Below, piece by piece: positions 5,819 to 32,540 of a stretch of 36,448 bases of DNA (the first letter of the stretch is position 1; each line of letters starts with the position of its first letter). Position numbers and translations under genes: made by a program. The notes beneath the pieces are model-generated. The model was not told where the DNA came from and searched no databases. It worked only from the letters and a program-made list of their open reading frames with translations. The stretch is from the NCBI GenBank assembly GCA_946562005.1, contig CAMNVD010000003.1, forward strand, positions 1 through 36,448, written 5' to 3'. This stretch comes from an uncultured Clostridia bacterium. GTDB lineage: Bacteria > Bacillota > Dehalobacteriia > UBA4068 > JAAVYR01.

Positions 5819-7372
5819 ATCGCAAGTGCAAGACAATCTATTTCAATGTTTAACGGACAGTCTGCTGTCTGGAATGTTAATAGTATAAAGAATACGTTAA
5901 AGGATGCGGTAAAACCTGAAAAGATAATGACGCTTTCTGACCAATTAGCGAACAGCAGGGCGAGATTGGACGCAGTAACTATGACTTTTGATGACGGCGG
6001 CAGCATTGCAGAAATAGAGAAAAGGGTAATGGCTTCTGCTCAGCGGTCAAGAATTGCTTATTTTGACGCTGTAGATAGCGTTACAAATTTAGCCTTGAAT
6101 GCACATGGTATTTTTGGTAGCTTTGAGGAAGCCATTGGTTTTCAAGAGTTAATCAATAAAGAATTTGGCTTGGGAAGCGCAAGTATCCAACAACAAAAGA
6201 CTGTAATGGAGCAATTAACTGAGGCAATGTCAGGAGGGGGGCTGACGGCTAAGAATATCGCAGATATTTGGGAGACGGCTCCTGATATGGTGCAAAACAT
6301 CGCAGACTATATGAATGTACCGGTTGAACGAGTGCAAGGTCTTGCGGCAGAGGGCCGAGTCACTGCCCAAGTGGTGAAAAATGCCATGTTTGCCGCTAGT
6401 GATGAGATAGAAAGCAAATTTAACAATATGTCCATGACCTGGGGACAAGTATGGACAAATATGAAGAATATAATGATTGCAACATTTAATCCTATTTTGG
6501 AAGGTATTAACGCTATTGCAAATAGTCCGATTATAGAATATCTTGCTGAGAGCATAGCCCGTGAGGGACGAGCGATTGTTAATGCCTGGGGATTGATAGA
6601 ACCAATTATTATTGGAGTTGCTGGGGCATGGTTAATTTATACAGCAGCAACAAAAGCGGCTGCAATAGCGCAGTGGGCGTTAAACTCCGCCTTTCTTTCA
6701 AACCCCCTGACTTGGGTTTTGGTAGTGATTATCGCTATTATTGCGGCTCTTACAAAATGGGTGCAAAAAATGGGCGGCTTGCGTATTGCCTGGGCTACTG
6801 TAATGACAGGAATTGTTGATTTTGCCGGATTTGCAAAAACTCAATTTCTATTAACACTGGAATCCATGGTAAATAAAGGGATCGATATTATCAACGCTCT
6901 GATTAACACATTAAACAAAACCGGTCTTGTTAGTTTTGATACTATTTCACATGTTATATTTGGCACAAACGTGGCAATAAAAGAAAATTTTAAGAGAATG
7001 GAACGGGGATTTGAGTTAGAAATACTAAAGCTTGAGGTTGCAAAAGGAAAAGAAAACCAAAAGGAAAAAGGCTTTAATTATGATGATTTTGGTCTTGACC
7101 TGGATAGCCTTTATAGTCCCAGCGTCCAAACAGCAGAAAACACTGCTGTCATGGCTGATGCTATGAGTATATCTGAGGAGGACTTGGCTTATATGCGGGA
7201 TATTGCAGAGCGAGAAGCCATCAATCGTTTTACCACGGCGGAAGTGAAAATCGACATGACCGGCATGACCAATCGGATTGACTCTAATATGGATTTAGAC
7301 GGTGTGCTGACGACTCTCACAGACGGCTTTGCTGAAGCCTTAGAAGTGGCGGCAGAGGGGGTGCATATGTAA
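5819..7372 (+). CDS. Short tape measure protein (track start 5846; possible upstream non-ATG start near 5819)
   Basis: Tape-measure domain with hydrophobic segments; C-terminus EEDLAYMRDIAEREAINRFTTAEVKIDM..; frame open upstream with AAAGGAGG 9 nt before ATC at 5819. Confidence 0.8.
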   Translation: MASARQSISMFNGQSAVWNVNSIKNTLKDAVKPEKIMTLSDQLANSRARLDAVTMTFDDGGSIAEIEKRVMASAQRSRIAYFDAVDSVTNLALNAHGIFGSFEEAIGFQELINKEFGLGSASIQQQKTVMEQLTEAMSGGGLTAKNIADIWETAPDMVQNIADYMNVPVERVQGLAAEGRVTAQVVKNAMFAASDEIESKFNNMSMTWGQVWTNMKNIMIATFNPILEGINAIANSPIIEYLAESIAREGRAIVNAWGLIEPIIIGVAGAWLIYTAATKAAAIAQWALNSAFLSNPLTWVLVVIIAIIAALTKWVQKMGGLRIAWATVMTGIVDFAGFAKTQFLLTLESMVNKGIDIINALINTLNKTGLVSFDTISHVIFGTNVAIKENFKRMERGFELEILKLEVAKGKENQKEKGFNYDDFGLDLDSLYSPSVQTAENTAVMADAMSISEEDLAYMRDIAEREAINRFTTAEVKIDMTGMTNRIDSNMDLDGVLTTLTDGFAEALEVAAEGVHM

Positions 7373-8035: not shown

Positions 8036-8997
8036 AGGTAGATTTAATCATCACTCACGGTAGTACGCTGTATTATCCTATTGTAGAAGAGGATATCAGT
8101 GTGGAGTGGGACAGAAAAGGTGTGCCTGGTAAATTAAAATTCAAAGTAGTAAAAGACGATGTGCTTTCCTTCCAAGAAGGAGATGCCGTAAAGCTATCTG
8201 TAGACGGGATAGATTTATTTTACGGCTTTGTTTTTACCAAAAGCAAATCAGGGAAGTCGCCCTATCTTATCGAGGTGACGGCTTATGACCAGCTGCGGTA
8301 TTTCAAAAATAAAGATACCTATCATTACACCAACAAAAAGGCCAGTGAGGTGGTGCAGATGATAGCCGAGGATTTTCGCCTGAGCGTTGGAGAGCTGGAC
8401 GATACAGGGTATGTGATTCCTTTTCGTTCTGAGCCGGATAAGACGCTCTTTGATGTTGTGGGAAATGCTTTGGATGAAACAGTACAGGCCACAACAAAGC
8501 TCTATGTGCTTTATGACGATGTAGGCAAGCTAACGCTAAAAAACATTGAAAATATGAAGCTGAACCTCATACTGGACGCTGATACCATTGGCAACTATTC
8601 CTACGCTAGCACCATCGACAGCATGACCTACAACCAAATCAAAATCACCTTTGAGAACCAGGATACTGGGGCCCATGAAATCTTTATCGCCAAGGACAGC
8701 TCCAATATTAACCGTTGGGGGTTGCTCCAATACACGGATAATGTGAAAAATGCTGTAAATGGTGCGACTAAAGCAGAGGCGCTATTAAAACTTTATAATA
8801 CCAAAACCCGCACGCTATCCATTTCTGATGCGTTAGGTGACAAACGGGTGCGGGCAGGGTCCTCTGTCATCGTAAAGCTAGATCTTGGCGATATTAACAT
8901 TCAAAGTTATTTATTAGTGGAAAAGGTAACTCATAAATTCAAACAGGAACAACATCTGATGGATTTAAGATTGCGAGGTGGTACATTTGTCAGCTGA
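8032..8997 (+). CDS. Tail hub/late control D-like protein (XkdQ-like)
   Basis: 321 aa, ATGA-coupled to XkdP-like gene; synteny. Confidence 0.82.
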   Translation: MKVDLIITHGSTLYYPIVEEDISVEWDRKGVPGKLKFKVVKDDVLSFQEGDAVKLSVDGIDLFYGFVFTKSKSGKSPYLIEVTAYDQLRYFKNKDTYHYTNKKASEVVQMIAEDFRLSVGELDDTGYVIPFRSEPDKTLFDVVGNALDETVQATTKLYVLYDDVGKLTLKNIENMKLNLILDADTIGNYSYASTIDSMTYNQIKITFENQDTGAHEIFIAKDSSNINRWGLLQYTDNVKNAVNGATKAEALLKLYNTKTRTLSISDALGDKRVRAGSSVIVKLDLGDINIQSYLLVEKVTHKFKQEQHLMDLRLRGGTFVS

Positions 8998-9382
8998 TAT
9001 TAACGCTTTTCTTGGTAACGTGAAGCGTGCGGCAGTAGAAGCAGTTGCTGCTGGAAGCCCAATGTCTTTTCTTCTCGGTAAGGTAACCAGCGTTTCACCT
9101 CTCAAAGTTCAGATAGACCAAAAGCTGGAGCTCATAGAAGCCCAGCTTATCCTTACCAATGCGGTGCGGGATTACACCGTCAATATGACGGTAAACCATG
9201 AAACAGAAGCGGCCGCTGGCGGCAGTGGTGATGCAGCCTTTGCTAGCCATAAACATAGCTACACAGGAAAGAAGGCCTATACCGTTCATCTAGGACTAAA
9301 GCCTGGTGAGCAAGTGTTGCTCTTAAGGACAGATGGCGGACAGAAATTCATTATTTTAGATAGATTGGAGGCGCTAGCATGA
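8978..9382 (+). CDS. DUF2577 family tail protein (XkdR-like)
   Basis: Synteny; GKVTSVSPLKVQIDQKLELIEAQLILTNAVRDY; likely TTG start near 8987. Confidence 0.75.
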   Translation: MVHLSADINAFLGNVKRAAVEAVAAGSPMSFLLGKVTSVSPLKVQIDQKLELIEAQLILTNAVRDYTVNMTVNHETEAAAGGSGDAAFASHKHSYTGKKAYTVHLGLKPGEQVLLLRTDGGQKFIILDRLEALA

Positions 9383-15763: not shown

Positions 15764-17137
15764 ATGACAGAAAAGAAAATCCCTTATAAAATCTATCTAA
15801 CAGAAGAGGAAATGCCCAAACAATGGTATAATCTCCGGGCTGATATGCCTACCAAACCGGCGCCGCTTTTAAATCCTGCTACCTTAGAACCAATGACTGC
15901 CGCAGAGTTAGAAGGCGTATTCTGTAAAGAGTTAGTACGGCAAGAACTGGATAATGATACCCCTTATTTTGATATTCCTACGGAAATCCGTGATTTCTAT
16001 AAAATGTATCGTCCAGCGCCGCTGGTGCGGGCTTATTGCTTAGAGGAAAAACTGCAAACACCGGCAAAAATTTATTATAAATTTGAAGGCAACAACACTT
16101 CCGGTTCTCATAAGCTGAACTCTGCCATTGCTCAGGCTTATTATGCCAAGGCCCAGGGGCTCAAAGGGGTAACGACGGAAACCGGCGCCGGACAATGGGG
16201 AACGGCGCTTTCTATGGCTTGCGGTTACCTAGGTCTGGACTGCAAGGTATTTATGGTGAAATGCTCCTATGAACAAAAGCCATTCCGCCGTGAAGTCATG
16301 CGGGTACACGGTGCATCCGTGGTGCCATCTCCTTCAGAAAGCACAGAGGTAGGCCGGAAAATCTTAGCGGAGTTTCCCGGGACCACTGGTTCTCTGGGGT
16401 GCGCTATTAGTGAAGCAGTAGAAGTAGCGGTGAAAACGCCGGGTTATCGTTATGTATTAGGCAGTGTGCTTAATCAGGTATTACTTCATCAATCCATTAT
16501 TGGTCTGGAAGCAAAGCTAGCCCTAGATAAATATGATGTGAAGCCGGATATTATTATTGGCTGTGCTGGGGGCGGCAGCAATTTAGGCGGGCTCATTGCG
16601 CCTTTTATGGGGGAAAAATTAAGGGGCGAGGCAGATTATCGTTTCATTGTAGTAGAGCCGGCTTCCTGTCCATCCTTTACTCGTGGGGAATATCGCTATG
16701 ATTTCTGCGACACGGGAATGGTTTGTCCTCTTGCTAAAATGTATACTCTGGGTAGTAGCTTTATGCCGTCTGCCGACCATGCAGGGGGCTTACGTTTCCA
16801 CGGCATGAGTAGCACATTAAGTCAGCTTTATGCGGACGGCTATATGGAGGCTACTTCTGTCTGCCAAACAGAGGTGTTCCAAGCGGCGGAAGAATTTGCT
16901 CGGGTAGAGGGCATCCTGCCGGCGCCGGAATCTAGCCATGCCATCCTTGCAGCTATCAATGAAGCGAAGAAATGTAAAGAAACCGGTGAGGAAAAAACCA
17001 TTCTCTTTGGCCTGACGGGGACTGGTTACTTTGATTTTTTTGCTTATGAAAAATTCCATGATGGTGAAATGAAAAACTATATTCCTACCGATGAAGAAAT
17101 CGCAGCTTCGCTAGGAAAGCTACCAAAAGTAGAATAA
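15764..17137 (+). CDS. trpB: TrpB2-type tryptophan synthase beta subunit
   Basis: KFEGNNTSGSHKLNSA PLP-lysine motif, TGAGQWGTALSMA, GCAGGGSNLGG; long TrpB2-like N-terminus. Track start at 15410 lies inside the T-box. Confidence 0.92.
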   Translation: MTEKKIPYKIYLTEEEMPKQWYNLRADMPTKPAPLLNPATLEPMTAAELEGVFCKELVRQELDNDTPYFDIPTEIRDFYKMYRPAPLVRAYCLEEKLQTPAKIYYKFEGNNTSGSHKLNSAIAQAYYAKAQGLKGVTTETGAGQWGTALSMACGYLGLDCKVFMVKCSYEQKPFRREVMRVHGASVVPSPSESTEVGRKILAEFPGTTGSLGCAISEAVEVAVKTPGYRYVLGSVLNQVLLHQSIIGLEAKLALDKYDVKPDIIIGCAGGGSNLGGLIAPFMGEKLRGEADYRFIVVEPASCPSFTRGEYRYDFCDTGMVCPLAKMYTLGSSFMPSADHAGGLRFHGMSSTLSQLYADGYMEATSVCQTEVFQAAEEFARVEGILPAPESSHAILAAINEAKKCKETGEEKTILFGLTGTGYFDFFAYEKFHDGEMKNYIPTDEEIAASLGKLPKVE

Positions 17138-17198: not shown

Positions 17199-17211
17199 TA
17201 TGGTAAAATAA
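17199..17211. repeat. Putative attL core (13-bp direct repeat TATGGTAAAATAA)
   Basis: Identical 13-mer at 32288-32300, bracketing the integrase-containing region. Confidence 0.6.
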
Positions 17212-17299: not shown

Positions 17300-18301
17300 C
17301 TAAATTGAAATCAGTTCAACGGTTGCCCGTAGTTCTTCTATTGTCTTGTGGTTATATACCCGGTTGCCCGTATCTTTGGAAGTATGCCCCATAAGTAAAT
17401 CAATGCAGCGGCGATTTCCCCCAGCAGCATCAAGCAAGGTTTCAAAGGTGTGGCGGCACTCATGCGGGGTGTGCTGCATTTCCAGCTTCCCCATGATTTC
17501 AGCCCATATTGCCCGGTAAGCGGTGGTTGAAATTGGCTTGCCATTTTGGGAGATCAGCCGGGGCGGGTTGCTGGCAAGGCGGGCTTCTATAAATCCCTTG
17601 ATTTTGGGGTGTATGGGAACAATGCGCCCTTTTCCGGCTTTCGTCTTTGTGCCGCCCTTCATAGTTCCGGCTTCAAGGTCAATATCTTCCGGGCGTAACG
17701 CCAACAGTTCAGAGATACGCCAACCGGAATATATGAAGATAAGCACGGTATCAATCCATTCTTCCACTTGGTGTTTCCATAACCGGGCAATTTCTTCATT
17801 GGTGAACGGTAGGCGGCTTGTGGGCGGGATAGGTTCAGAAGAAAGCAGATCAGAATAACGGCAGGACGATATATCCAGTTCAAGGGCGAATTTATCTAAA
17901 TGCCCCCAAAGGTTTTTGATTGCGCCTTGCGTGGAATAGCCCTTGCCGCAACTATCAATAATATCTTGCATATGATAGGCTTTGATTTGTCTGTATGGCA
18001 TACTGCTTAATGGGGCGCAGTATTTGAAGGCTGATTTCAGGGAACTTTGGTTTGACTTACCCAATTTTGGGGCTTTCTTCTCTTGCCAAAGGTCAAACAA
18101 TTCTTGCAGCGTGATTTTCACCTTGTCAATATCCCACGGGTTGGCGTTGTACGCCGCCAACATTGCAAGCCCTTCTTCCCGGCTTGCCGCATAGCCGATA
18201 ATGGCACAACCCCCGCCTTCGTCTGTTTTCCGCACGATATACGGGCGGCGGCGTTTTCCTGATAGTTTGCTGATTGATCCGTATTTGTTGGGTAGCTTCA
18301 T
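17300..18301 (-). CDS. int: Tyrosine-type site-specific integrase
   Basis: FIYSGWRISELLALRPEDID, HTPHECRHTFETLL, LMGHTSKDTGNRVYNH (R...HxxR...Y pattern); likely start ATGAAGCTACCC after GGACGG. Confidence 0.92.
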   Translation of the reverse strand: MKLPNKYGSISKLSGKRRRPYIVRKTDEGGGCAIIGYAASREEGLAMLAAYNANPWDIDKVKITLQELFDLWQEKKAPKLGKSNQSSLKSAFKYCAPLSSMPYRQIKAYHMQDIIDSCGKGYSTQGAIKNLWGHLDKFALELDISSCRYSDLLSSEPIPPTSRLPFTNEEIARLWKHQVEEWIDTVLIFIYSGWRISELLALRPEDIDLEAGTMKGGTKTKAGKGRIVPIHPKIKGFIEARLASNPPRLISQNGKPISTTAYRAIWAEIMGKLEMQHTPHECRHTFETLLDAAGGNRRCIDLLMGHTSKDTGNRVYNHKTIEELRATVELISI

Positions 18302-18510
18302 TGTACCGTCCTTTCTTGACTTCTGAACCAAAGAACGGTATAATAACAATAGCCATTCAATGATTCTTTGATCGGGTTCGTTGTTTGGTGCTTCGGAAAT
18401 CCTCTGGTATTGCAGTACCGGGGGATTTTCTTTTACCTGAATACTCCCCGCTATCACTTGCAGATGATTAGCGGGCGTTTAAGCCGTTGCCCTTTGCAGA
18501 GGGTGGCGGC

Positions 18511-18975
18511 TTATTTCTTTTTCTGTTGTTCTAAAACTTTCTTGTAAAACCTTCCTTCAATCGCTTCTTTTGCCCCAGCTTGCAGTTCTTCAAATTCTGA
18601 TTGTGTAAATTTCGCCTGGTGTCCATCTTTTCCCAATTCAGCAGTATAACTTTCGCCTTCTTCATTTTCTGGTGTAAAGTCAACGGAAAAGCCCATTTCT
18701 TTCAAATAAGCTGTTACCGCCCCAAAGCGTGCTACATTTTCGCCCATATCAGGATATTGCTTATCAAATTCTTCCCAAATGGAAGTATCAGCTAAATCCC
18801 GCAAGTGAACGCCCAAAGCCTTAGCAATTTTGATTAGTATATCTTGCTTAGGTTCACGCTGTTCCTTTTCATATCGCATGATGGCAACACCTGATAAACC
18901 AACCATATATCCTAATTCCTCTTGCGTGTATCCTTTTTCTTTTCTGAAATGCTTGATATTTTCGCCTACGGTCAT
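18511..18975 (-). CDS. XRE-family HTH repressor
   Basis: MTVGENIKHFRKEKGYTQEELGYMVGLSGVAIMRYEKEQREP after AAGGAGGTGAATTT. Confidence 0.85.
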   Translation of the reverse strand: MTVGENIKHFRKEKGYTQEELGYMVGLSGVAIMRYEKEQREPKQDILIKIAKALGVHLRDLADTSIWEEFDKQYPDMGENVARFGAVTAYLKEMGFSVDFTPENEEGESYTAELGKDGHQAKFTQSEFEELQAGAKEAIEGRFYKKVLEQQKKK

Positions 18976-19016
18976 AAATTCACCTTCTTTCAAATTACCA
19001 ATAGTATATACTAAAA

Positions 19017-19080
19017 CAACCAAAATGTCAAATTGTTTTTGAAAACCCCTTGACAATCAACCAAAATGTCAGTATAATAT
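19017..19080. promoter_or_regulatory. Divergent early promoter/operator region
   Basis: CAACCAAAATGTCA at 19017-19030 and 19058-19071; plus-strand TTGACA(19050)-17-TATAAT(19073); minus-strand TTGACA-17-TATACT. Confidence 0.8.
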
Positions 19081-19135: not shown

Positions 19136-19810
19136 ATGAAAGAAACAAGTTTGAAACCCGTGATTGAAAAACTTGAAAATTTATTTTCAAAGTTCAATGA
19201 AAAGTTCTATAACGGTGAACTTCAAGCCCCCGTTATCACGGTAAGCCCGGACACAACAAAAGGTGCTTATGGGTGGTGTACCGCTTGGAAGGCGTGGAGC
19301 GTTGGCGAACAGAAAAAAGTTGCTGACCTTGCAACCCTGACAAAAGAAGCCCTTGAAGCAATGAAGAAAGATGATGGCTTCTATGAAATCAATATTTGTG
19401 CGGAACACCTTGCAAGACCTTTTGAACAGGTTGCGGAAACCCTCTTACATGAAATGGTTCACCTTTACAATCTGCAAATTGGGGTTCAGGACACAAGCAG
19501 GGGCGGCACATACCACAATAAGAAATACAAAGAAGCGGCTGAACAGCACGGCTTGACGGTTGAAAAGGATGCAAAATACGGCTGGACTAAAACAAGCCTG
19601 AATGATGAAGCAAAAGCCTTTGTTGCCGGGATGCAGGATAAGAAGTTTGAACTTCACAGAAAGAGCCTTCCGAAAATCCCCGGTGCAGCTAAAACAAAGC
19701 AGAGTTCCCGGAAATATGTTTGCCCCGTGTGCGGGTGCATTATCAGGGCAACAAAGGAAGTTCATGTTATATGCGGCGATTGCAATGTAGAGTTTGAGGA
19801 AGAAGCCTAA
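19136..19810 (+). CDS. SprT-like zinc metallopeptidase domain protein with C-terminal zinc ribbon
   Basis: ETLLHEMVHLYNLQ (HExxH); YVCPVCGCIIRATKEVHVICGDCNVEF. Confidence 0.87.
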   Translation: MKETSLKPVIEKLENLFSKFNEKFYNGELQAPVITVSPDTTKGAYGWCTAWKAWSVGEQKKVADLATLTKEALEAMKKDDGFYEINICAEHLARPFEQVAETLLHEMVHLYNLQIGVQDTSRGGTYHNKKYKEAAEQHGLTVEKDAKYGWTKTSLNDEAKAFVAGMQDKKFELHRKSLPKIPGAAKTKQSSRKYVCPVCGCIIRATKEVHVICGDCNVEFEEEA

Positions 19811-19845: not shown

Positions 19846-20007
19846 TATGAAGCGAATGAAAAGAAAAACCGTTTGGGCGTATTTAGACGGAAAGAAACTT
19901 GTTGATGTAGTGAAAGCAGCCCTTGATAATAATATGATGGTTGACGATATGAAAGCCATTCTGATTAAAGAAAATCCGGGGCATGAAGTAACTTTCAAAT
20001 GTGAATA
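19846..20007 (+). CDS. Small hypothetical protein (53 aa)
   Basis: MKRMKRKTVWAYLDGKKLVDVVKAALDNN...; RBS AAGGAAG. Confidence 0.5.
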
Positions 20008-20099
20008 GCCCACCTGATGATGGCAAAGTTGGTTACTTGCCGAAATCCCCAATATGGGGATCGTGGGAAACCACAAAATCAAACAAGGAAGGTGATAAT

Positions 20100-20336
20100 G
20101 TGAAAATTGATAACAGTAAGTTGGATGTGTTGTTAGCCCGGCGTTGCATGACGATTGCAGACTTGCGAAAAGAAGCATCTTCACAAACCCTAACAAGAAT
20201 TCGACGGGGTGAAAGTGTAAAACCTATCACAGCCGGAAAAATCGCCCTTGCGTTGGGTGTGGATGTAACTGACATTATCGAAAATACCGCTGCAACGGTT
20301 GATAATGGTAAACAGGGGATTTCCGAAGCAAAATGA
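20100..20336 (+). CDS. Cro-like HTH protein / possible excision regulator
   Basis: GTG start after GGAAGGTGATAAT; KLDVLLARRCMTIADLRKEASSQTLTRIRRGESVKPITAGKIALALGVDVTDII. Confidence 0.65.
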   Translation: MKIDNSKLDVLLARRCMTIADLRKEASSQTLTRIRRGESVKPITAGKIALALGVDVTDIIENTAATVDNGKQGISEAK

Positions 20337-20433: not shown

Positions 20434-22425
20434 GTGCTGACTTTAGAAGAAGTTGGAAGAATCATATTCAACAATGAATACTGGAAAGGCGGCAACGGCG
20501 GGAATTTCAAAGCCCCGTACAATAACAATGCCCCAAAGCCATTTGAAGAAGCCAAACAATACCGCTACATTTGCGGTGTAATTCAGGAATTTGTTGTTAT
20601 GGTGGATATTGATGATGAAGCCGCTTTTCAATGCAGATTGAACATTGCAAAAGCATTGAAGCAGCATTGTATTGTTATCAAATCACCAAACAAAGGCGGG
20701 CATTTTTATTGGTTCAATCGTGAGATGCAGCCAATCAAGAACAACAGCGGCAACAAAACGCTTCTGACATTGTACCCGGTAGATTATAAAACCGGAATAC
20801 GGCGAATTGAAAGCACCGGGGAAATTAAGAAAGCGAAGTGTGCAGCTTCCCTTTCAAAAGAAGATGGTTCTTTGCGTGAAATCCTCTATGCAAATATCCG
20901 GGAAGATGGAACGCTGGATGAAGTGCCGTTCTATGATTTGCCGCTGAAATCCGGCGCAAAGCATGAGTTCTTGAACATGGGTGAAGGTGACGGAAGGCAG
21001 GACGGGCTTTTTACTTACATGAACCCAATGAAGGCGGCGGGCTATTCCTATGAACAGTTCAAAGAAATTGCTGAATTGATTGAACAATTTGTGTTTGCCA
21101 TTCCTTTGGGTGATGAATTTGAAAATGCAATCCGGCGTGAAGCGTGGGATTCTGTTGATGCCGTAGATCAGGAACGCTTTTTCAGCAAGGGAAAATTCCT
21201 TCATAACAAGTTCGCTGATTATCTAATGGAGAAATACCATATTCGGAAAATCAACGGCTACATTCATAGCTACCAGAACGGGGTTTATATTCCGGGCTAT
21301 GATGCCATTGAAAAAGCCATGCTGAAAGAGATTTCCAGCTTGACACGGACAAAGCAAAATGAAGTGCTGAATTATATTCGGATTCAGGCAGCGGAAATCC
21401 AAAACAGCAAACCCGAACTAATACCGTTCAAAAATGGTTTGCTTGATATTGAACACACTGAACTATTACCGTTTTCCCCGGATTTGGTTGTCACCAATAT
21501 GATCCCGTGGGAATATCGCCCGGAAGCTGTTTCAGAATTGGTTGATGCAGTGCTTGACCGTCTTTCATGCAGGGATGCTGAAATCCGGGCATTGCTGGAA
21601 GAAGTCGGCGGTATGTGCCTTTATAGGGATAACACCATAGGAGGCGGCAAGGCGGTAATTCTGACCGGGGATAAATCCAACGGCAAAAGCACATTCATTT
21701 CAATGCTGCAAGCTATGCTTGGGGCTGACAATGTTTCAAACCTTGATTTTAAGGAACTGGATGGGAAATTTTCAACGGCTATGCTGTTCGGCAAACTGGC
21801 AAATTTGGGGGATGATATTTCAGACAGCTACAAGGAAGATGTTGCGATTTTTAAGAAGATTGTGACAGGCGAACCGATAAAGGCAGAGGAAAAAGGCAAG
21901 CCGCCCTTCAATTTCAAACCCTATGTGAAGCTGGTGTTTTCAGCAAACAGTATTCCCCGGATCAATGATTCAACGGGTGCAGCCTTGCGACGATTGCTGA
22001 TTATTCCCTTAAACGCAAAGTTTTCCGAAAATGATTCCGGCTATGATCCGCAAATTCGGTTGAAGCTATCACAGAAAGAAGCCGTTGAATATTTCATAGT
22101 GCTTTCGATTCAGGGCTTGCAGCGGGTGTTGACAACAAAGAAGTTCACTATTCCGGTAAAGGTGCAGGATGAAAAGGATTCCTATGAGAAAGAAAACAAC
22201 CCTGTTTTGGCATTCATTGATGAAATCGGTACAGATGAAATTATCAATGAACCTACTGCAAAGGTATATAGCCGCTATTGCGAATTTTGCCTTGCGAATG
22301 GATTTAAGGAAATGAGCAAGCTAACTTTTTCAAAGCGGATCAATCAGGCGTTGGGAACAAAAGTTACAACAGCACATACCGGAACGGGTAAAAATCGAAA
22401 ATCTATAAAAGTATTTTCGTTGTGA
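20434..22425 (+). CDS. P4/D5-type primase-helicase with N-terminal primase-polymerase-like region
   Basis: Walker A-like LTGDKSNGKSTFISML; FSANSIPRINDSTGAALRRLLIIPL; N-terminal VMVDIDDE / KGGHFYWF. Confidence 0.85.
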   Translation: MLTLEEVGRIIFNNEYWKGGNGGNFKAPYNNNAPKPFEEAKQYRYICGVIQEFVVMVDIDDEAAFQCRLNIAKALKQHCIVIKSPNKGGHFYWFNREMQPIKNNSGNKTLLTLYPVDYKTGIRRIESTGEIKKAKCAASLSKEDGSLREILYANIREDGTLDEVPFYDLPLKSGAKHEFLNMGEGDGRQDGLFTYMNPMKAAGYSYEQFKEIAELIEQFVFAIPLGDEFENAIRREAWDSVDAVDQERFFSKGKFLHNKFADYLMEKYHIRKINGYIHSYQNGVYIPGYDAIEKAMLKEISSLTRTKQNEVLNYIRIQAAEIQNSKPELIPFKNGLLDIEHTELLPFSPDLVVTNMIPWEYRPEAVSELVDAVLDRLSCRDAEIRALLEEVGGMCLYRDNTIGGGKAVILTGDKSNGKSTFISMLQAMLGADNVSNLDFKELDGKFSTAMLFGKLANLGDDISDSYKEDVAIFKKIVTGEPIKAEEKGKPPFNFKPYVKLVFSANSIPRINDSTGAALRRLLIIPLNAKFSENDSGYDPQIRLKLSQKEAVEYFIVLSIQGLQRVLTTKKFTIPVKVQDEKDSYEKENNPVLAFIDEIGTDEIINEPTAKVYSRYCEFCLANGFKEMSKLTFSKRINQALGTKVTTAHTGTGKNRKSIKVFSL

Positions 22426-23478: not shown

Positions 23479-23507
23479 GGAAATTACAGAAAAGAGGTTA
23501 AAAACAT

Positions 23508-24249
23508 GACGAAAGATCAGTTGAAAAAATATCTTGATGGCGTGATTGATGATATTCGCACCTTGTATATCAAGACACAGGAAAAGTTGCGGGAGATTCA
23601 AAAGAAAGCAAACAGCGAATGGACAACGGTTTATAATGTTCCGGTTCATATGACACCGGATCAGCAAGCGGCGAATGCGGCGGTTATGCAGGATGCCGCA
23701 AATAAACTGAATCAGGAATACAAAGAAGCTGTTGAAAAGGCAATTCAGGAAGCCACAGATACGATTGCAGCGGTGAAGAAATCTGCAATTCAGGATTTAA
23801 CCGCCGCTGAACCCGTTCCCACCGATATTCAGTTGCGGATGGCTGAACAGATCAAGAAAGAGTACAGAAACGGCAATAACGCCCTTTCCCTTGACCGGGT
23901 AAAGCAGTTTGAAGCTGATATGAATTATCATGTGGAAAATGAAACGGTGAAGGCATACCCCTTCTATTTGGCGGCTAAAGACCTGTTCCCGGATAATGGC
24001 GGCAATGCGGATATTCTGAACGCTGCATATATGAAGTTGTTCCCAGCGATTGCTGAAAAGCAGGATGTTCTTGATGGAATTGGAGAGTGTGAACGCTTTT
24101 TCAGGGCGGCAATTATCACACATAAACTTGATACGATTACCGCCATAAATTCAGAAGCAGATCAACTTGAAGTAATCCGTTTGAAGGAAGAACTTGCTTC
24201 ACTTGGCGAAATTGGAAGCCTGAATCAGCGTGTTATTCAATATTCATAA
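23508..24249 (+). CDS. Coiled-coil-rich hypothetical protein
   Basis: Start ATGACGAAAGATCAG after AAAGAGGTTAAAAAC; MTKDQLKKYLDGVIDDIRTLYIKTQEKLREIQKK. Confidence 0.6.
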
Positions 24250-24784: not shown

Positions 24785-24822
24785 TTGAAAATTAACTTTC
24801 AAAAGTGAAAGAAGGTGATTAT

Positions 24823-25032
24823 ATGGCAAGGCGAAACTTAAAACTTGATACCCCGGATAATATCAGAAAAGCCCTTGCTAAAGTGGCAAATATGGTTTAC
24901 AAAGGTGAACTTGATACAAAGATTGTAAACAGCTTTATTCTTGCCTGTAACGCTATTTTAAGCGGCATACGCACGGATGAACAGGAAAAGAAGATTGCTG
25001 AATTGGAACGGATTATAAACGAAAATGAATAA
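24823..25032 (+). CDS. Small hypothetical phage-type protein
   Basis: MARRNLKLDTPDNIRKALAKVANMVYKGELDTKIVNSFILACNAILSGIRTDEQEKKIAELERII after GAAGGTGATTAT. Confidence 0.55.
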   Translation: MARRNLKLDTPDNIRKALAKVANMVYKGELDTKIVNSFILACNAILSGIRTDEQEKKIAELERIINENE

Positions 25033-25061: not shown

Positions 25062-25259
25062 ATGAGAAAACCAATACCCATTTCCGAAACACTGATTCTT
25101 CAAGAAGAAAAACGCCTTCGGGAACAGGCTGGAAATATTATCGCCGCTAAAGAAATTGGAATCAGTCAACAGAGCATTGATAAAATGATTGCTTGTTTCT
25201 CCATTTCAAAGGCGTATTATGACGATCTGAAAAGGCGGTATGAAGAAAATGGAAAATGA
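25062..25259 (+). CDS. Small hypothetical protein
   Basis: RBS AAAGGAG; overlaps the sigma gene start. Confidence 0.5.
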   Translation: MRKPIPISETLILQEEKRLREQAGNIIAAKEIGISQQSIDKMIACFSISKAYYDDLKRRYEENGK

Positions 25260-26214
25260 AGAATTGGTTGAACAAATACAAGCCGGGATTAAGCCAACTG
25301 AAAATATGGAACAGCTTTATTTGCAGAACCGTTCTTTCATTTACCAGCAGGCAAAGAAATATGCCGCTTATGCTGATATGGATGATTTAATGCAGGAAGC
25401 CTATTTTGGACTACATGAAGCCGTGAAGCATTACAAGCCCGATAAAGAAACAAAGTTCCTTACTTATCTTCCCTTCCGGCTGCAAAAGGCGTTTCGCCGT
25501 TATATCGACAATAACGGACATACCAAAAGAATTCCGGTTCATTTGGTTCAACGAATTTCAAAGTATAGGAAATATATTTCTGAACAGGCAAAGCAAGGTG
25601 TTGAACCGTCTGATTTTGAAATATGCCGGGATTTGGAATTGTCTGAACAGCAGCTTAAAGATTTACGGAAGGCAATGCGTGAAGCGGAATGTATCAGCAC
25701 AAGCGATTTTGTACCCGGTTTAGATAATATGACCGTGGAAGAATCCCTTGCCGATCCGCTGGGTATGGAAGAACAAGTGATTGATGAAGTCGCAAGAGAA
25801 CAAGCGGAAAGCCTGATCTGGAAGATTGTTGATGAACTGGAAGAACGGCAAGCAGAAGTGATTGTTGGGCGGTATAAAGAATTGGCTACTTTGAAAGAAA
25901 TCAGCAAGCGGTTGAATCTTTCATATCAGCGTATCAGGCAAATAGAAAAGAAAGCCCTATACATTCTACAAAGCAAGCATGAAATCAGCGATATAGCCGA
26001 AATATACGGTTATATGAACGCTTACCGGGGAACAGGGTATCAGGCTTTCAAGAATGGCGGTTCTTCCGTTGAAAACGCAGCTATCAAGCATATAGAAGGA
26101 GAAGCGAGGATCAAGGCAATGCAGCAGAGAATCAAGCAGCAGAAAACGGAAATTCTAACTACTTTGAATATGGATGAACTATTTTCAAAGGTTCTGAACC
26201 TTGCTTCACAGTAA
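25249..26214 (+). CDS. Sigma-70 family RNA polymerase sigma factor
   Basis: Region 2: DMDDLMQEAYFGLHEAVKHYKPDKETKFLTYLPFRLQKAFRRYI; region 4: TLKEISKRLNLSYQRIRQIEKKAL. Confidence 0.88.
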   Translation: MENEELVEQIQAGIKPTENMEQLYLQNRSFIYQQAKKYAAYADMDDLMQEAYFGLHEAVKHYKPDKETKFLTYLPFRLQKAFRRYIDNNGHTKRIPVHLVQRISKYRKYISEQAKQGVEPSDFEICRDLELSEQQLKDLRKAMREAECISTSDFVPGLDNMTVEESLADPLGMEEQVIDEVAREQAESLIWKIVDELEERQAEVIVGRYKELATLKEISKRLNLSYQRIRQIEKKALYILQSKHEISDIAEIYGYMNAYRGTGYQAFKNGGSSVENAAIKHIEGEARIKAMQQRIKQQKTEILTTLNMDELFSKVLNLASQ

Positions 26215-26230: not shown

Positions 26231-26512
26231 ATGTATAAGCATCAGGAACAGTTTTTGAAAATTACACAGGAGTATAACAGACAGATCAGTTTGCTTTTGG
26301 GTATGGCAGAAAAGGCTAACCGAAAGCAAATTGAACGGCTAACGCCAATTTTGCAGAAATTGAAAAGTTCACTTCAAAAATTGATAAATCAGCAAGAGCG
26401 ATTCAAACAGTGCGTTCATAATCCAGGGAAATATAAAGCCCTCTTGCAGCCTTATATTTCTTTGCTGGATGAAACAAAGGCAGAGATTGAAAAGCTAGGT
26501 GAAAAGACTTGA
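26231..26512 (+). CDS. Hypothetical coiled-coil protein
   Basis: MYKHQEQFLKITQEYNRQISLLLGMAEKANRKQIERL after GAAAGGGGATTTGAA. Confidence 0.5.
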   Translation: MYKHQEQFLKITQEYNRQISLLLGMAEKANRKQIERLTPILQKLKSSLQKLINQQERFKQCVHNPGKYKALLQPYISLLDETKAEIEKLGEKT

Positions 26513-26940
26513 ATCCCAATATTGAAGTTATTACGCCGGAATTGTGGGCGGTAAACAGTGGCTACATAAAAGCCGGATGGATTCGGGAATTATCGCCTGT
26601 TCCGGGGCTGGAAAGCGTAAACAAATATGCTTCCCTGACAAATGACGGTATTATGATCCTGAAAAAAGAATCAGAGTTTTACCCGATATTGAAACAGCTT
26701 GTACCTAAAATTATGCTGCATACGGATGAAGAATTGCAACTTTGCCACAAGTTGAATCATAAGGCGGTGCTTGATGATTATGAAAAGCTATATTTGAATG
26801 TTATGGAATGGGAAATTGAAAGGCGGCGTGTTCGGGCGGATTATCTGAACCGCTTCCCCCGCCCAACATTGAAAAACAGGATCAGAAAATTATTGCAGAA
26901 GGTAGGTGAAAAATTTGGCTACTATCAGAACAGCGATTGA
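26509..26940 (+). CDS. Hypothetical protein upstream of tape measure
   Basis: 143 aa, overlapped by the tape-measure start. Confidence 0.5.
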   Translation: MNPNIEVITPELWAVNSGYIKAGWIRELSPVPGLESVNKYASLTNDGIMILKKESEFYPILKQLVPKIMLHTDEELQLCHKLNHKAVLDDYEKLYLNVMEWEIERRRVRADYLNRFPRPTLKNRIRKLLQKVGEKFGYYQNSD

Positions 26941-29500
26941 ACTTTATGATGCGTTTTCTGCACCGCTTATGAATGTAATTCAAGCGGTAAATCAGGGAGT
27001 TTCTGCAATGGAAACCATGCACGCAACCATGAATGAACCTGTTTCCGTGTCGATTGCGGACGGGATTGCAGAGCAAATGAATCAGGCGGTGCAAGCTATT
27101 GAAGAAGCAAGGGCGGCATTGTCTGAACCTGTTACCCATGAAAATACAAGCGTTACTTGGGATAGCCTCACAATGCCAACCTTCACAAATTCCGGGGCTG
27201 ACCGTTTCCAGCAGGAAGTTCAGAGTGCAAACGCCATGTTGGAGCAACTGAACCAGACCCAACGGAATATAGCGGCACAGGCTGAACGGGTGCAACTGTT
27301 CCCTTCAAATATGGTGAATGATATGAATACCATGCAAAGCCGTATTCAAGGCATTCAGGAAAGAATTCAAACCATAGAAAATAACCCCTTGAATTTGGGA
27401 ACAGATCAAGCTAACGCTGAATTGGAGTATTTGCGTAACAATTTGAATCAGGCAGTTCAGACACAGAATGAAATGAACGCTGCAATTCAGAACATGGACA
27501 TTACAACCGCCAATGATGCGTATATCCGGCTTTCAAATACCATTTCAGGAACAGAAAGATATATCCGTGATAATGTTGACGAACAAGGGCGGTTCAACCG
27601 TGAAATTGAAGAAGGCACGAATGAAGCCAATGAACTAATGCAGACAATCAAGGGGGCGGTTGCGGCATACGCTACAATTCAAACCCTTTCAGCGGCGTTG
27701 AACTTATCGGATCAGCTTACTTCCACAACCGCCCGCTTGAATTTGATGAATGACGGGCTGCAAACCACACAGGACTTGCAGAACATGATTTATCTTTCAG
27801 CGGAACGGGCAAGGGGCAGCTATCAGGCAACCGCTGATGCCGTTTCCAAACTTGGACTTATGGCGGGTGATGCGTTCAGCAGTTCGGAAGAAATCATTGC
27901 CTTCATGGAACAGGTGAATAAGCAATTTACCATTGCTGGAACGGAAGCGGCGGGCATTGATGCCGCTATGTTGCAGCTTACACAAGCAATGGGTTCAGGC
28001 GTTCTTCGTGGCGAGGAATACAACAGCATTTTGGAGCAAGCCCCGAATATCATTCAGGCGATTGCTGATTATATGGAAGTTCCAAAGGGGCAATTAAAGG
28101 ATATGGCAGCGGAAGGACTAATCACCGCTGACATTGTAAAGGCGGCTATGTTTGCGGCGGCTGATGATACCAATGCAAAGTTTGAACAGATGCCGAAAAC
28201 CTTTTCGCAAATTTGGACTTCTTTTCAGAATACCGCTTTGATGGCATTTCAGCCCGTTCTTCAAAGAATGAATGAAATTGCCAATAGTGAAGCGTTTCAG
28301 GGCTTTGTGAACAATGCGATTGAAGCCCTATCAATGGTGGCGGGCATTGCCCTTGAAATCTTTGATTTGCTTGTGGGCGTTGCTGAAATCGTTGGTGAAA
28401 ATTGGTCGTGGCTATCCCCTATCATTTACGGTGTAGCCGGGGCTTTGGCTGTTTACTACGGCTGGTTGCTGTTGACAAAAGGGGCAGCGTTAGCAACCGC
28501 AGCGGCACAAGGTGCATTGACACTTGCTAAAATGCTTGCCGTTCCTGTTTACGCCGCTTTAACGGGTGCGACAATGGCAGATACGGCGGCACAATGGGGG
28601 CTGAATTCTGCAATGTACGCTTGCCCTATCGTGTGGATCATTATTCTTATAATCGCCCTGATAGCCCTATTCTATGCGGCGGTGGCGGCGGTGAATAAAT
28701 TCGCCGGAACTTCCGTTTCCGCAACGGGTATAATTTGCGGGGCGTTCATGGTTGCCCTTGCCTTTATCGGCAATATCTTTGTTGCCCTTTGGAATTTGGT
28801 TGTGGATGTGTTCGTGCTTATCTATAACCTTGTGGCAACCGTGGCAAACTTTATCGGCAATGTATTCACCGATCCTATCGGTGCGGTTTGTCGATTGTTC
28901 TTTGATTTGGCTGATACCGTGCTTGGAATTCTTCAAGCGTTGGCTTCGGCTATTGATGCAATCTTCGGTTCAAACCTTGCGGGAAGTGTTCAGGGTTGGC
29001 GTGATTCTCTTGGCGGTTGGGTTGATGAAACCTTCGGTAAGGGTGATGAAGTAATGGCAAAAATGAACGCTGACGATATGAAACTTGGGCGGTTTGAATA
29101 CGGGGCAGCTTGGGATGCCGGGTATTCCTTTGGTGAAGGCATTGATGAAAGCATTGCGAATTTCGATCCTTCCAGCCTGTTTGATACCAATGTACCGGGT
29201 GCGGGTGACTACGCCGATTTGAGCAATTACGGGGCGGGGCTTGCCGGGGATGTTGGCGATATAGCGGGCAACACCGGGGCAATCAAGGATTCAATGGATA
29301 TTACAGAAGAAGATTTGAAATATCTTCGTGACATTGCCGAACAGGAAGCGATAAACAGATTTACAACCGCTGAAATCAATATAGAAGCACCAATAACCAA
29401 CCAAATTTCTAAAGATGTTGATTTGGATGGAGTAGTTGACGGGCTGACGGGTGCAGTAAATGAAGCGGCTGACATTATAGCGGAAGGCGTACACATTTAG
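26906..29500 (+). CDS. Orphan phage tape measure protein
   Basis: ATIRTAIELYDAFSAPL N-terminus; tape-measure domain SLDQL-type NLSDQLTSTTARLNLM...QAIADYMEVPKGQLKDMAAEGLITADIVKAAMFAA; C-terminus EEDLKYLRDIAEQEAINRFTTAEINI. Start may be TTG 26915. Confidence 0.88.
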   Translation: MKNLATIRTAIELYDAFSAPLMNVIQAVNQGVSAMETMHATMNEPVSVSIADGIAEQMNQAVQAIEEARAALSEPVTHENTSVTWDSLTMPTFTNSGADRFQQEVQSANAMLEQLNQTQRNIAAQAERVQLFPSNMVNDMNTMQSRIQGIQERIQTIENNPLNLGTDQANAELEYLRNNLNQAVQTQNEMNAAIQNMDITTANDAYIRLSNTISGTERYIRDNVDEQGRFNREIEEGTNEANELMQTIKGAVAAYATIQTLSAALNLSDQLTSTTARLNLMNDGLQTTQDLQNMIYLSAERARGSYQATADAVSKLGLMAGDAFSSSEEIIAFMEQVNKQFTIAGTEAAGIDAAMLQLTQAMGSGVLRGEEYNSILEQAPNIIQAIADYMEVPKGQLKDMAAEGLITADIVKAAMFAAADDTNAKFEQMPKTFSQIWTSFQNTALMAFQPVLQRMNEIANSEAFQGFVNNAIEALSMVAGIALEIFDLLVGVAEIVGENWSWLSPIIYGVAGALAVYYGWLLLTKGAALATAAAQGALTLAKMLAVPVYAALTGATMADTAAQWGLNSAMYACPIVWIIILIIALIALFYAAVAAVNKFAGTSVSATGIICGAFMVALAFIGNIFVALWNLVVDVFVLIYNLVATVANFIGNVFTDPIGAVCRLFFDLADTVLGILQALASAIDAIFGSNLAGSVQGWRDSLGGWVDETFGKGDEVMAKMNADDMKLGRFEYGAAWDAGYSFGEGIDESIANFDPSSLFDTNVPGAGDYADLSNYGAGLAGDVGDIAGNTGAIKDSMDITEEDLKYLRDIAEQEAINRFTTAEINIEAPITNQISKDVDLDGVVDGLTGAVNEAADIIAEGVHI

Positions 29501-29613: not shown

Positions 29614-30177
29614 ATGGAAACACGAAAGGGAAATATGATTTTTGGGAAAGCTGGCGGTAATGCAAGCCGGAATTCTTATACTTGTAAAGTATCTGTTCCC
29701 AAAACATGGGTTGACCGAATGGGGCTAACCCATGAACAGCGGGAAATAGAACTTGCCTTTGATGGAGATAGGATCACGATTGATAGACCGGAACACAGCC
29801 CGGTAAAACATACCCCATTAGCAAGCAATCAGAAAATCCGGCGTTTTGCCTTGCTTTGGATGCAGATGTATAAAAACCACGCTTCCACACCCGGCTTCTA
29901 TTTTGAAGATGTTTCCTTTGTTGGTGAAGGGCTTGCAGATTTAGGCTTTGAAATGGATTGTGGGGAATCCTTCAAGGCAGCTTTCCCAAACTGTAATTTA
30001 GGCGATTGCGAAGCGTGGAAACGGATTGTGAATCAGATTGACAGTGTGCAGCTTTTGGGGGATGCGATTTTCTCACAATGGCGGTACTGGAATCATTGGA
30101 GTAATGCACCAATGGAAGAAGCTGATTTTGAATGGTTTGCGCTTGCCTTTTCCCGGCTGGCTGAACTGGCGGCATGA
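29614..30177 (+). CDS. SpoVT/AbrB-like N-terminal domain protein
   Basis: NSYTCKVSVPKTWVDRMGLTHEQREIELAFDGDRITIDRP resembles an AbrB swapped-hairpin domain. Confidence 0.6.
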   Translation: METRKGNMIFGKAGGNASRNSYTCKVSVPKTWVDRMGLTHEQREIELAFDGDRITIDRPEHSPVKHTPLASNQKIRRFALLWMQMYKNHASTPGFYFEDVSFVGEGLADLGFEMDCGESFKAAFPNCNLGDCEAWKRIVNQIDSVQLLGDAIFSQWRYWNHWSNAPMEEADFEWFALAFSRLAELAA

Positions 30178-30278
30178 TGTTTTGAAAATTAACTTTCAAT
30201 CTGTTTTCCCCTTTCATATTGCAAGCCCCTAACCAAAGTATCAAAGCCTTTCTGTTTCCGCTTATATAGCCGTTATAT

Positions 30279-30344: not shown

Positions 30345-32015
30345 ATGAACAGAAACAGAAGAACAGTATTTTTCAGGATCATGGCAACAATTATGTGTGC
30401 CGCTTGCGTGGTGGTTATGTGTTCGGGCTATCAGGCAAGGGCAGAAACAACCGCTGATTTCCCCATAGCGAAAAATGGGAATCAGCTTCTTCAAGCGATT
30501 GCCGCCGCTGATGATGGCGATACAATCGGAATTTCTGATATGATTGCCTTTTATGAGGGGGTAACGATTGGAGCAGAGGACAAACGAATTACTATTGTTC
30601 GGATGAATGAGAATGCTTTTTTGTCCTTTACCGGATCGGATTCTTCTTTGGTGCAAAATGTTGTATTTGACGGGGGAAACATAGAATCCAATTACCCTAT
30701 GATTAGTTCACAATGTTCTTTAACCGTTGAAAACAGCATTTTTCAAAATTGCATTTGCAATGGTGAAGGTGCTGCACTTGGATTTTATTCTGATGAACTT
30801 AACATTGCAAGTTGTGTTTTCAAAGATAATTGGGCATATCGTGGCGGTCATGTTTACATAGCCACTTTGAGAGAAGCAACAATTTCAAGTTGCACTTTTA
30901 AGAATGGAGAAGCCAAAGAACAAGGTGGGGCATTGTATGTAACAGGTGAAACCAAAATAAGAAATAGTGTTATTACTAACAATCGGGCGAACTATGGCGG
31001 TGGCATTTATCACGGCAGTCAAAATTGTATTATATCCGGCACAAAGATTTATTATAATTCGGCTAACATTTATGGTTCAGATTATGCTACTGAAACTCCT
31101 TATTTCTATTTTGCCGAATCGGTTGCTGAACTTACGGAATTATTTGCACCTGATAATTTGAAACCTGTTGAATGGGAGATTTCTAACAATAGCGGGGTTG
31201 ATGGATTTAAGTTGATTTTGGAAACACTTACACCTATTGAACCTGAACAACCCACAACTCCAGAAAAACCGGAAACGCCGACAGAACCAGAAAACCCGGA
31301 TGAACCCGACAAGCCAACCGAACCGGAAAACCCCGAGAACCCCGAGAACCCGAATCAGCCGGACACGCCCACAGAGCTGGGGGAGAATGAGCCGCCCAAA
31401 GATGAATCGGGAACAGGAACGGACAAGCCCGCAGAAGGTGAAAATAAGCCTTCCGAACCTGAAACACCCCCGGATGATACCCAAAATAAGGGGGATGAAC
31501 AGCCGCCCGCCGATAACCCGGAAGAAAAACCCGGTGTAAGCGGTTCAGGGAACGCCCCGGCAACCCCTTCCGATTCAACGGGGAATAATGGCGGCAATAA
31601 TACCAGCAATTCAACAAGCACCACCACAACCAGCGACAACAGAACAACGGATAATTCCGACAATTCCCGGTATTCCAGCACCAGCGATTCTAACAATACA
31701 TCCACGGTGAATAATTACTATCAGCAGGAAAAACAACCTTCCAGCAGCGGGGAATCGGTTCAAACAATCGTTGTCCCTGTTGGCAACACTGGAAACGGCG
31801 AACCGCTGCAACAAACAATCAGAGTTGAAAACCCGGAAGGAACAACGGCAACGGGAAGTTTGGAAGGCTTGACCTTGAATATCAATGTGAACACAGCTTC
31901 ACAGGATCAGGCGGCAAATACTTCCCCTGTTCAGCAAAGCGGAATATCTTGGTATCAAGCAATCGTTTTGTGCCTTCTGTCTGCTATTTTGGTTTGCTTG
32001 TTGAAAAGCCGCTGA
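30345..32015 (+). CDS. Secreted/surface-anchored beta-helix protein with Pro/Glu-rich spacer
   Basis: Signal peptide (RTVFFRIMATIMCAACVVVMCSGYQARA); right-handed beta-helix-like repeats; EPENPENPENPNQPDTP spacer; C-terminal TM WYQAIVLCLLSAILVCLLKSR. Confidence 0.8.
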   Translation: MNRNRRTVFFRIMATIMCAACVVVMCSGYQARAETTADFPIAKNGNQLLQAIAAADDGDTIGISDMIAFYEGVTIGAEDKRITIVRMNENAFLSFTGSDSSLVQNVVFDGGNIESNYPMISSQCSLTVENSIFQNCICNGEGAALGFYSDELNIASCVFKDNWAYRGGHVYIATLREATISSCTFKNGEAKEQGGALYVTGETKIRNSVITNNRANYGGGIYHGSQNCIISGTKIYYNSANIYGSDYATETPYFYFAESVAELTELFAPDNLKPVEWEISNNSGVDGFKLILETLTPIEPEQPTTPEKPETPTEPENPDEPDKPTEPENPENPENPNQPDTPTELGENEPPKDESGTGTDKPAEGENKPSEPETPPDDTQNKGDEQPPADNPEEKPGVSGSGNAPATPSDSTGNNGGNNTSNSTSTTTTSDNRTTDNSDNSRYSSTSDSNNTSTVNNYYQQEKQPSSSGESVQTIVVPVGNTGNGEPLQQTIRVENPEGTTATGSLEGLTLNINVNTASQDQAANTSPVQQSGISWYQAIVLCLLSAILVCLLKSR

Positions 32016-32269: not shown

Positions 32270-32298
32270 TTGAATTTTGAACTATTTTATGGTAAAAT
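32270..32298 (+). promoter_or_regulatory. Promoter of cobalamin riboswitch transcript
   Basis: TTGAAT - 17 bp - TAAAAT with TGG extension. Confidence 0.7.
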
Positions 32299-32300
32299 AA
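32288..32300. repeat. Putative attR core (TATGGTAAAATAA)
   Basis: Identical to 17199-17211. Confidence 0.6.
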
Positions 32301-32317
32301 GGATGCAAAAATAGCAT

Positions 32318-32540
32318 CATGACTCGGGGTCTGTTGGGCAGGCGTCAAGGCGGACAGATGTCGGGATGAGGGAATCCGGTGAGAATCCGGAGCAATACCC
32401 GTTGCCGTATGTGCAGGAGTTTGCAGTTCGTGGCGTGAGCCGGTCATTGAGGGGAAACTTTTGAGAAGGCGGAGCTGTAAGCGTTGGGATTTTTTCTTGA
32501 AACTGTACGAGCCGGAAGACCTATGATGTTTATAGGCTTG
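32318..32540 (+). promoter_or_regulatory. Cobalamin (AdoCbl-type) riboswitch
   Basis: GGGAATCCGGTGAGAATCCGGAGCAATACCCG core and B12-box-like GAGCCGGAAGACCTATG. Confidence 0.92.

Follow-up and report, generated by a model that had tools for sequence, protein, structure and literature searches.

To our knowledge, a satellite tape measure protein (TMP) in stolen helper tails has so far been demonstrated only in a satellite of Vibrio cholerae, and we know of no tail structural gene or sigma factor in SaPIs. The PLE satellites of V. cholerae encode a TMP and a chaperone (TAC), and PLE11 in addition BhuB (PMC12987554, Nature 2026). The PLE TMP replaces the phage TMP in chimeric tails, and deletion of tmp cuts PLE transduction by 96-99.9 % (PMC12987554). 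Putative tmp genes are reported in other satellites, including some cf-PICIs (Extended Data Fig. 10 in PMC12987554).

The DNA analysed here, referred to as the window, is a stretch of 36,448 nt from an uncultured Clostridia bacterium (contig C3 of a 1.23-Mb assembly, 87 % complete). It contains a resident tailocin and an integrated element with a TMP gene. In common with PLE, the element is integrated and has its own TMP without sheath or tube; some PLE variants also encode a baseplate protein, and PLE parasitises a contractile-tailed phage (PMC12987554). The PLE TMP has about 20 % identity to that of its helper and the tail becomes 10 nm shorter, the TAC is recognisable and the helper is virulent (PMC12987554). 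In contrast, parts of the window TMP are 93-99 % identical to phages on the DNA level, its length is that of phage TMPs, its gene undergoes exchange with phages and has a non-TAC protein as partner, and the likely helpers are temperate. Classical PICIs and SaPIs resemble the element in the size of about 15 kb, the integrase, the divergent repressor, the primase and the att repeats, and its relatives also in TerS; in addition, a tail structural protein and a sigma factor are encoded in the window element, features not known from SaPIs. Two relatives (L043, L163) resemble cf-PICIs: besides a TMP they have genes for scaffold and major capsid, but no sheath or tube. The window element, in contrast, lacks genes for capsid, portal and terminase. 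A temperate myophage of the type present in [Clostridium] asparagiforme (L007) has TerL, TerS, capsid, sheath and baseplate; the window element has none of these.

A limited literature search revealed no account of this clostridial satellite family. The concept of a satellite that supplies its own TMP is already published for PLE; the clostridial elements are a separate family, in which the TMP behaves as an exchangeable helper-matching module, and they most likely work like PLE satellites. Judged from its genes, the element is probably a phage satellite from a PICI-like family in gut Clostridia. Its helpers would be temperate phages with contractile tails, of the type of L007, and its own TMP would be built into their tails. 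A phage satellite is the most likely assignment because the element has no tail genes except the TMP, and this gene has been swapped repeatedly with complete phages.

Boundaries and gene content of the element

The element has a length of 15.1 kb and clean ends, defined by the att repeats (Table 1). A sister species (G001) has an empty site: 42 nt separate the two flanks that adjoin the element in the window (at 17136 and 32288), and the 13-bp sequence TATGGTAAAATAA, present twice in the window (17199 and 32288), occurs once. The right junction lies apparently within the promoter of a cobalamin riboswitch. TATGGTAAAATAA resembles a promoter -10 box that is restored by the element insertion (32288-32540). 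The A. muris copy of the element occupies another locus, with an insertion site that is similar and TGGTATAAT-like, and the element integrase may target promoters. In a second sister genome (G002, contig C135, L138, 365-1027), a copy of the tailocin lysin gene has the TrpB-like gene on one side and the riboswitch on the other, and occupies the insertion site of the window element.

Table 1. Features of the integrated element in the window
Feature	Position	Strand	Basis or remark
attL core TATGGTAAAATAA, element left end	17199..17211	.	exact repeat of 32288-32300; single copy at empty site, G001 contig C15
Tyrosine integrase	17300..18457	-	PF00589 E 3.4e-17, phrog_1; 57.7 % identity to C. asparagiforme prophage integrase
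CI-type repressor	18511..19056	-	HTH_3 E 2e-13; DNA-binding half different in A. muris copy
SprT-like protein	19136..19810	+	PF10263; 81.5 % identity to C. asparagiforme prophage gene
Cro-like HTH protein	20001..20336	+	HTH_26
D5-type primase-helicase	20434..22425	+	DUF5906, D5_N, Pox_D5; phrog_864 E 1e-144
Palindrome TTGAAAATTAACTTTCAA	22620..22637	.	pattern search
247-aa coiled-coil protein, no function assigned	23506..24249	+	homologues in L006, L041, L045; directly after TerS in L006
Palindrome just upstream of sigma-TMP gene run	24785..24802	.	pattern search
Small conserved protein	24820..25032	+	95 % in A. muris, 51 % in L166
Sigma-70-family factor	25240..26214	+	Sigma70_r2 and r4, phrog_351
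93-aa helical protein	26231..26512	+	kept in close relatives; not TAC homologue
143-aa partner protein	26509..26940	+	directly before TMP
Tape measure protein (TMP), 864 aa	26906..29500	+	PF20155, phrog_1068
187-aa conserved protein	29614..30177	+	phrog_2329 over residues 1-59; 65-97 % identity in L006, L014, L018, L021, L043
Palindrome between 29614-30177 and surface gene	30182..30199	.	pattern search
Surface protein, C-terminal membrane segment, variable N-terminal part	30345..32015	+	71 % identity in A. muris
attR core, element right end	32288..32300	.	30 nt before cobalamin riboswitch 32330-32540

The layout shows traits of PICIs, namely an integrated element with an integrase at the left end, att repeats and an empty site, and divergent regulators followed by a primase module, with CI on the minus strand opposite SprT, Cro and primase on the plus strand. 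The SprT-like gene (19136-19810) follows directly after the repressor gene; here and in its counterpart in the C. asparagiforme prophage, a palindrome copy lies inside the coding sequence. The helicase-primase recorded in the initial annotation as a P4 primase is present, but its type is D5. The sigma-70-family factor is a probable late activator; no homologue was present in the pieces of the L007 prophage searched. The N-terminus of the 187-aa protein is, in our reading, AbrB-like. A reasonable AF2 model of the 247-aa coiled-coil protein (pLDDT 82.5) had no match in the PDB with E <= 0.001.

Genes for sheath, tube, chaperone, baseplate, capsid, portal or terminase were not detected in the window element, and the tail-module proteins of the window had no match but the TMP in the DNA between the att repeats. 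The search was sensitive enough, since in most phage loci these queries recovered genes for sheath, tube, TAC, hub and baseplate. The initial observation of an 864-aa TMP on an element of about 15 kb without other tail genes is thus confirmed. Neither TerS nor a known packaging gene was found in the element; its DNA may be packaged by means of a cos/pac-type sequence or by the TerS of the helper.

The tape measure gene and the resident tailocin

The TMP gene is an intact open reading frame with a GTG start, and the protein matches PF20155 (TMP_3) with E 2.7e-43 and phrog_1068 with E 4e-249. Its first 35 nt are shared with the end of the preceding gene, and an overlap of this kind is seen in most close relatives. 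The similarity to the TMP of the resident tailocin, emphasised in the initial annotation, was found in local alignments over the core (39 % identity) and the C-terminus (56 %; 53 % over the last 85 residues), but the TMPs of related phages are much closer to the window TMP, with 67-84 % identity over the C-terminus and 59-77 % over the full length. The large difference in length, given before as 864 versus about 508-517 aa, holds for the resident TMP (5846-7372, 508 aa), which is however itself short: the TMP in a sister genome (L005) has 631 aa. The resident TMP is without an N-terminal part that is present in this 631-aa protein, and the tail of the resident tailocin may be shortened.

The initial annotation had suggested that the element may hijack the resident tailocin or a helper phage by substitution of the TMP; the long TMP could then lengthen or repurpose the neighbouring tailocin. 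Tailocin and element are on one contig and their TMPs are related in the core and C-terminus. Yet the genomes of four other carriers of the element (L006, L014, L018, L021) contain no other related TMP, the exchange partners of the gene are phages, the palindrome described below is missing from the tailocin, and the nearest copy, in A. muris, resides in a different locus in another family. The hijack of the tailocin is therefore very improbable, while the idea of substitution persists in the form of a satellite-like element that would replace the TMP of a helper phage. A phage rather than the resident tailocin is regarded as the helper because the TMP lengths equal those of the matching phages and because the four carrier genomes have no related tail. 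For the window element itself, the helper would be a related myophage.

Recurrence in other Clostridia

TMP relatives were collected from 35 loci in a scan of one genome per species and from 80 loci in IMG/VR, and the loci were typed by tblastn with all window genes. Most had a full myophage tail module with sheath, tube, TAC, TMP, LysM, hub, W25, J and I, and a minority was of the element type, without sheath, tube or TAC (L006, L014, L018, L021, L041-L046, L084). Separate searches with the partner gene in 397 Lachnospiraceae genomes and 397 genomes from the order of F. gallinarum yielded six clear new loci (L162, L163, L165-L168), all with an adjoining TMP and none with sheath, tube or TAC. 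Incomplete contigs are included in the element-type set (L041-L045), and the lack of tail genes is established for the available sequence only. The element-type loci are spread over several clostridial genera and families. Cultured carriers, all commensals, are Acetatifactor muris DSM 23669, Faecalibacterium gallinarum JCM 17207 and Pseudoflavonifractor An85. A common plan was observed in the 16 related loci: integrase/repressor/primase/(TerS)/(capsid)/(sigma)/small gene/TMP. Orphan TMPs thus recur beside integrase and primase, in some loci also with the sigma factor, as the initial annotation had proposed to check. Sheath, tube and XkdN-type chaperone were found in none of the 16 loci, at least one baseplate-region gene after the TMP in five. 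A homologue of the window gene 8978-9382 follows the TMP in L046, L163 and L167, and a few additional parts of the tail tip may be encoded by some members of the family. Baseplate genes follow the TMP in L041 and L044. In L044:88-6883 and L041:3320-6306, the satellite partner gene lies upstream of the TMP, and LysM, hub and others lie downstream; these two loci may be chimeras of the assembly; otherwise they are satellites, or phages, in which a larger block has been exchanged.

TerS is encoded in L006 (PF03592, E 5e-34), L046 (phrog_2538, E 3e-32), L165 and L167, and a TerS fragment in the elements of A. muris and L042, close relatives of the window element. L043 and L163 have genes for scaffold and major capsid, and L043, L084 and L165 have adaptor or neck genes. 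According to these assignments, the TerS/capsid gene set of the relatives is that of PICIs and cf-PICIs. L043:2-1632 and L163:8162-9460, with scaffold, major capsid and TMP, are candidate capsid-forming satellites of Clostridia.

A chance survival of the TMP in the remnant of a decayed prophage would account for the integrase, SprT and TMP that the element has in common with complete phages, as well as for other phage genes kept in some relatives and the TerS fragments in A. muris and L042. It is hardly credible in view of a plan that recurs over several clostridial genera and families, an intact TMP with dN/dS values of 0.11-0.38, a partner gene that is always beside the TMP bar one deletion, the repeated, gene-confined exchange of the TMP, and the clean insertion; sheath, tube or TAC are not beside the TMP in any of the 17 element-type loci, two of which (L041, L044) have baseplate genes after it. 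The initial annotation had named related elements with a full tail module, or prophage decay, as evidence against its view; instead, 16 other loci of headless-tailless type, purifying selection and the clean att insertion were found.

Exchange of the tape measure gene with phages

The match between the element L043 and the prophage L007 of C. asparagiforme, with 92.6 % DNA identity, begins 7 nt upstream of the TMP start and runs to the stop; elsewhere they match only in a 246-nt head-tail-adaptor segment with 66.7 % identity. The A. muris TMP has 90.6 % DNA identity to the phage contig L058 (sheath-tube-TAC-TMP), as far as that contig reaches. Tiling of the window TMP revealed 95-99 % DNA identity to L058 from nt +675 to +1425 and mostly 90-97 % to L047/L048/L054 from nt +1725 to +2400, while the first ~600 nt are a cassette found in several elements. 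Tiles wholly outside the TMP gene had no phage match. The variation within the TMP is arranged in sharp blocks. According to these alignments, elements and complete myophages have repeatedly exchanged the TMP by recombination that does not extend beyond the gene. The phage L058 and the element L042 both stem from metagenome 3300006217. The prophage L007 is complete, with TerL, TerS, minor head protein, scaffold, major capsid and sheath, and shares with the window element the integrase and SprT (Table 1), the TMP (77 % identity) and the palindrome. The C-terminal part of its minor head protein (L007:784-3291) matches ADP-ribosyltransferase profiles (phrog_16625, phrog_3895).

The TMPs of the elements nearest to the window have 860-908 aa, those of most phages of the clade 863-921 aa. 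The TMP gene of L043, which is frameshifted in its metagenomic contig, and that of L007 are 3 nt apart in length. These phage-equal lengths and the dN/dS of 0.11-0.38 between the window TMP and its relatives indicate a TMP that is maintained, not resized; the resizing of tails considered in the initial annotation finds no support in the lengths. Phage-matched length and updated sequence argue for compatibility, not tail length, as the selected property.

Alternatively, the element TMP, together with its partner, may compete with the phage TMP, spoil the tails and so protect the host population, with transfer of the element being secondary. Satellite-borne defence acting on tail assembly is known from Tai (PMC11364771) and likewise from Rta of PLE11, and the TMP and the surface protein are variable modules. 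Such an anti-phage role is nevertheless rather unlikely: a spoiler is expected to be truncated or divergent, whereas this TMP looks fully functional, with phage-like length and sequence and long stretches of 95-99 % DNA identity, the TerS and capsid genes of the relatives point to particle formation, and a PADLOC search for defence genes gave nothing convincing.

The partner protein

The profile of the partner gene detected 16 of the 17 element-type loci and none of 107 other loci. In the sole exception, L014, the partner gene is missing and the TMP is kept, which looks like a deletion relative to L021. An identity of the two genes before the TMP as TACs was rejected, as hhalign comparison to eight TACs, all of the XkdN type, gave probabilities of 0.4 % and 0.2 %. 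Foldseek with an AF2 model of the partner protein had no match with E <= 0.001 in the PDB or BFVD. In cultured phage collections the partner gene had no match; the window TMP reached at most ~43 % identity in cultured phage and plasmid collections. As a marker, the partner gene makes it simple to detect such satellites in gut Clostridia.

A palindrome common to element and phages

The palindrome TTGAAA-N6-TTTCAA is present in four copies in the window, all of them in the element, with an expectation of 0.43 even when one mismatch is allowed. With a slightly stricter pattern, all hits of the 1.23-Mb window assembly were inside the element, as were five of five in A. muris (6.0 Mb) and the single hit in F. 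gallinarum; in C. asparagiforme (6.35 Mb), four of six were within the prophage region. The window search found no copy in the resident tailocin. Several phages have one copy ~156 nt before the sheath gene. A function as operator of the element's own CI is unlikely, since the DNA-binding half of CI differs between window and A. muris and the sites are identical. A mere promoter element was also rejected: several of the phage copies are located inside coding sequences, in different frames, and a scattered binding site fits better with this arrangement. The simplest reading is a putative regulator-binding site, scattered and common to phage and satellite, which suggests a shared regulation of element and phage.

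Proposed life cycle

Upon infection or induction of a helper, the element would be excised by the integrase and replicated by the primase. Late genes would be turned on via its own sigma factor, probably together with a helper-shared signal at the palindrome, and the element would make its TMP along with the partner protein. This TMP would be built into tails of helper sheath, tube, chaperone and baseplate, resulting in chimeric tails of normal length, and the element would be packaged in helper particles. Since the TMP has to suit the helper of the moment, its gene would be updated again and again through recombination with co-circulating phages. More tentatively, the TMP could be a swappable helper-compatibility cassette in a widespread, previously undescribed clostridial satellite family, with updates from co-circulating phages, a new partner family (26509-26940) that loads the TMP or favours it over that of the helper, and a shared palindrome that co-regulates satellite and phage.

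Mobility and the copy in A. muris

The elements of A. muris and the window have 90-98 % DNA identity over most of their length. The transfer crossed families, as the family of the window comprises 3 genomes and that of A. muris is a different one, with 397 drawn. The TMP of phage HK97 reportedly has a role in genome injection (work cited in PMC11364771). TMPs of other phages act in DNA injection and are targets of exclusion, and an ejected satellite TMP might let the satellite DNA into new host species or avoid an exclusion aimed at the helper TMP, consistent with an element that has crossed bacterial families. Such a role in DNA entry appears improbable as the explanation of the gene, and it is compatible with the incorporation of the TMP into helper tails, not exclusive of it.

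Proteins conserved between both copies are SprT (99.6 % identity), the primase (95.6 %), the sigma factor (95 %), the partner protein (96 %) and the post-TMP protein (97 %), in contrast to the divergent TMP (78 %), surface protein (71 %, mainly in the N-terminal part) and repressor (67 %, in the DNA-binding half). Like the TMP, the DNA-binding half of the repressor (18511-19056) and the N-terminal part of the surface protein (30345-32015) have been replaced between the copies next to neighbours with 95-99 % identity, giving three specificity modules.
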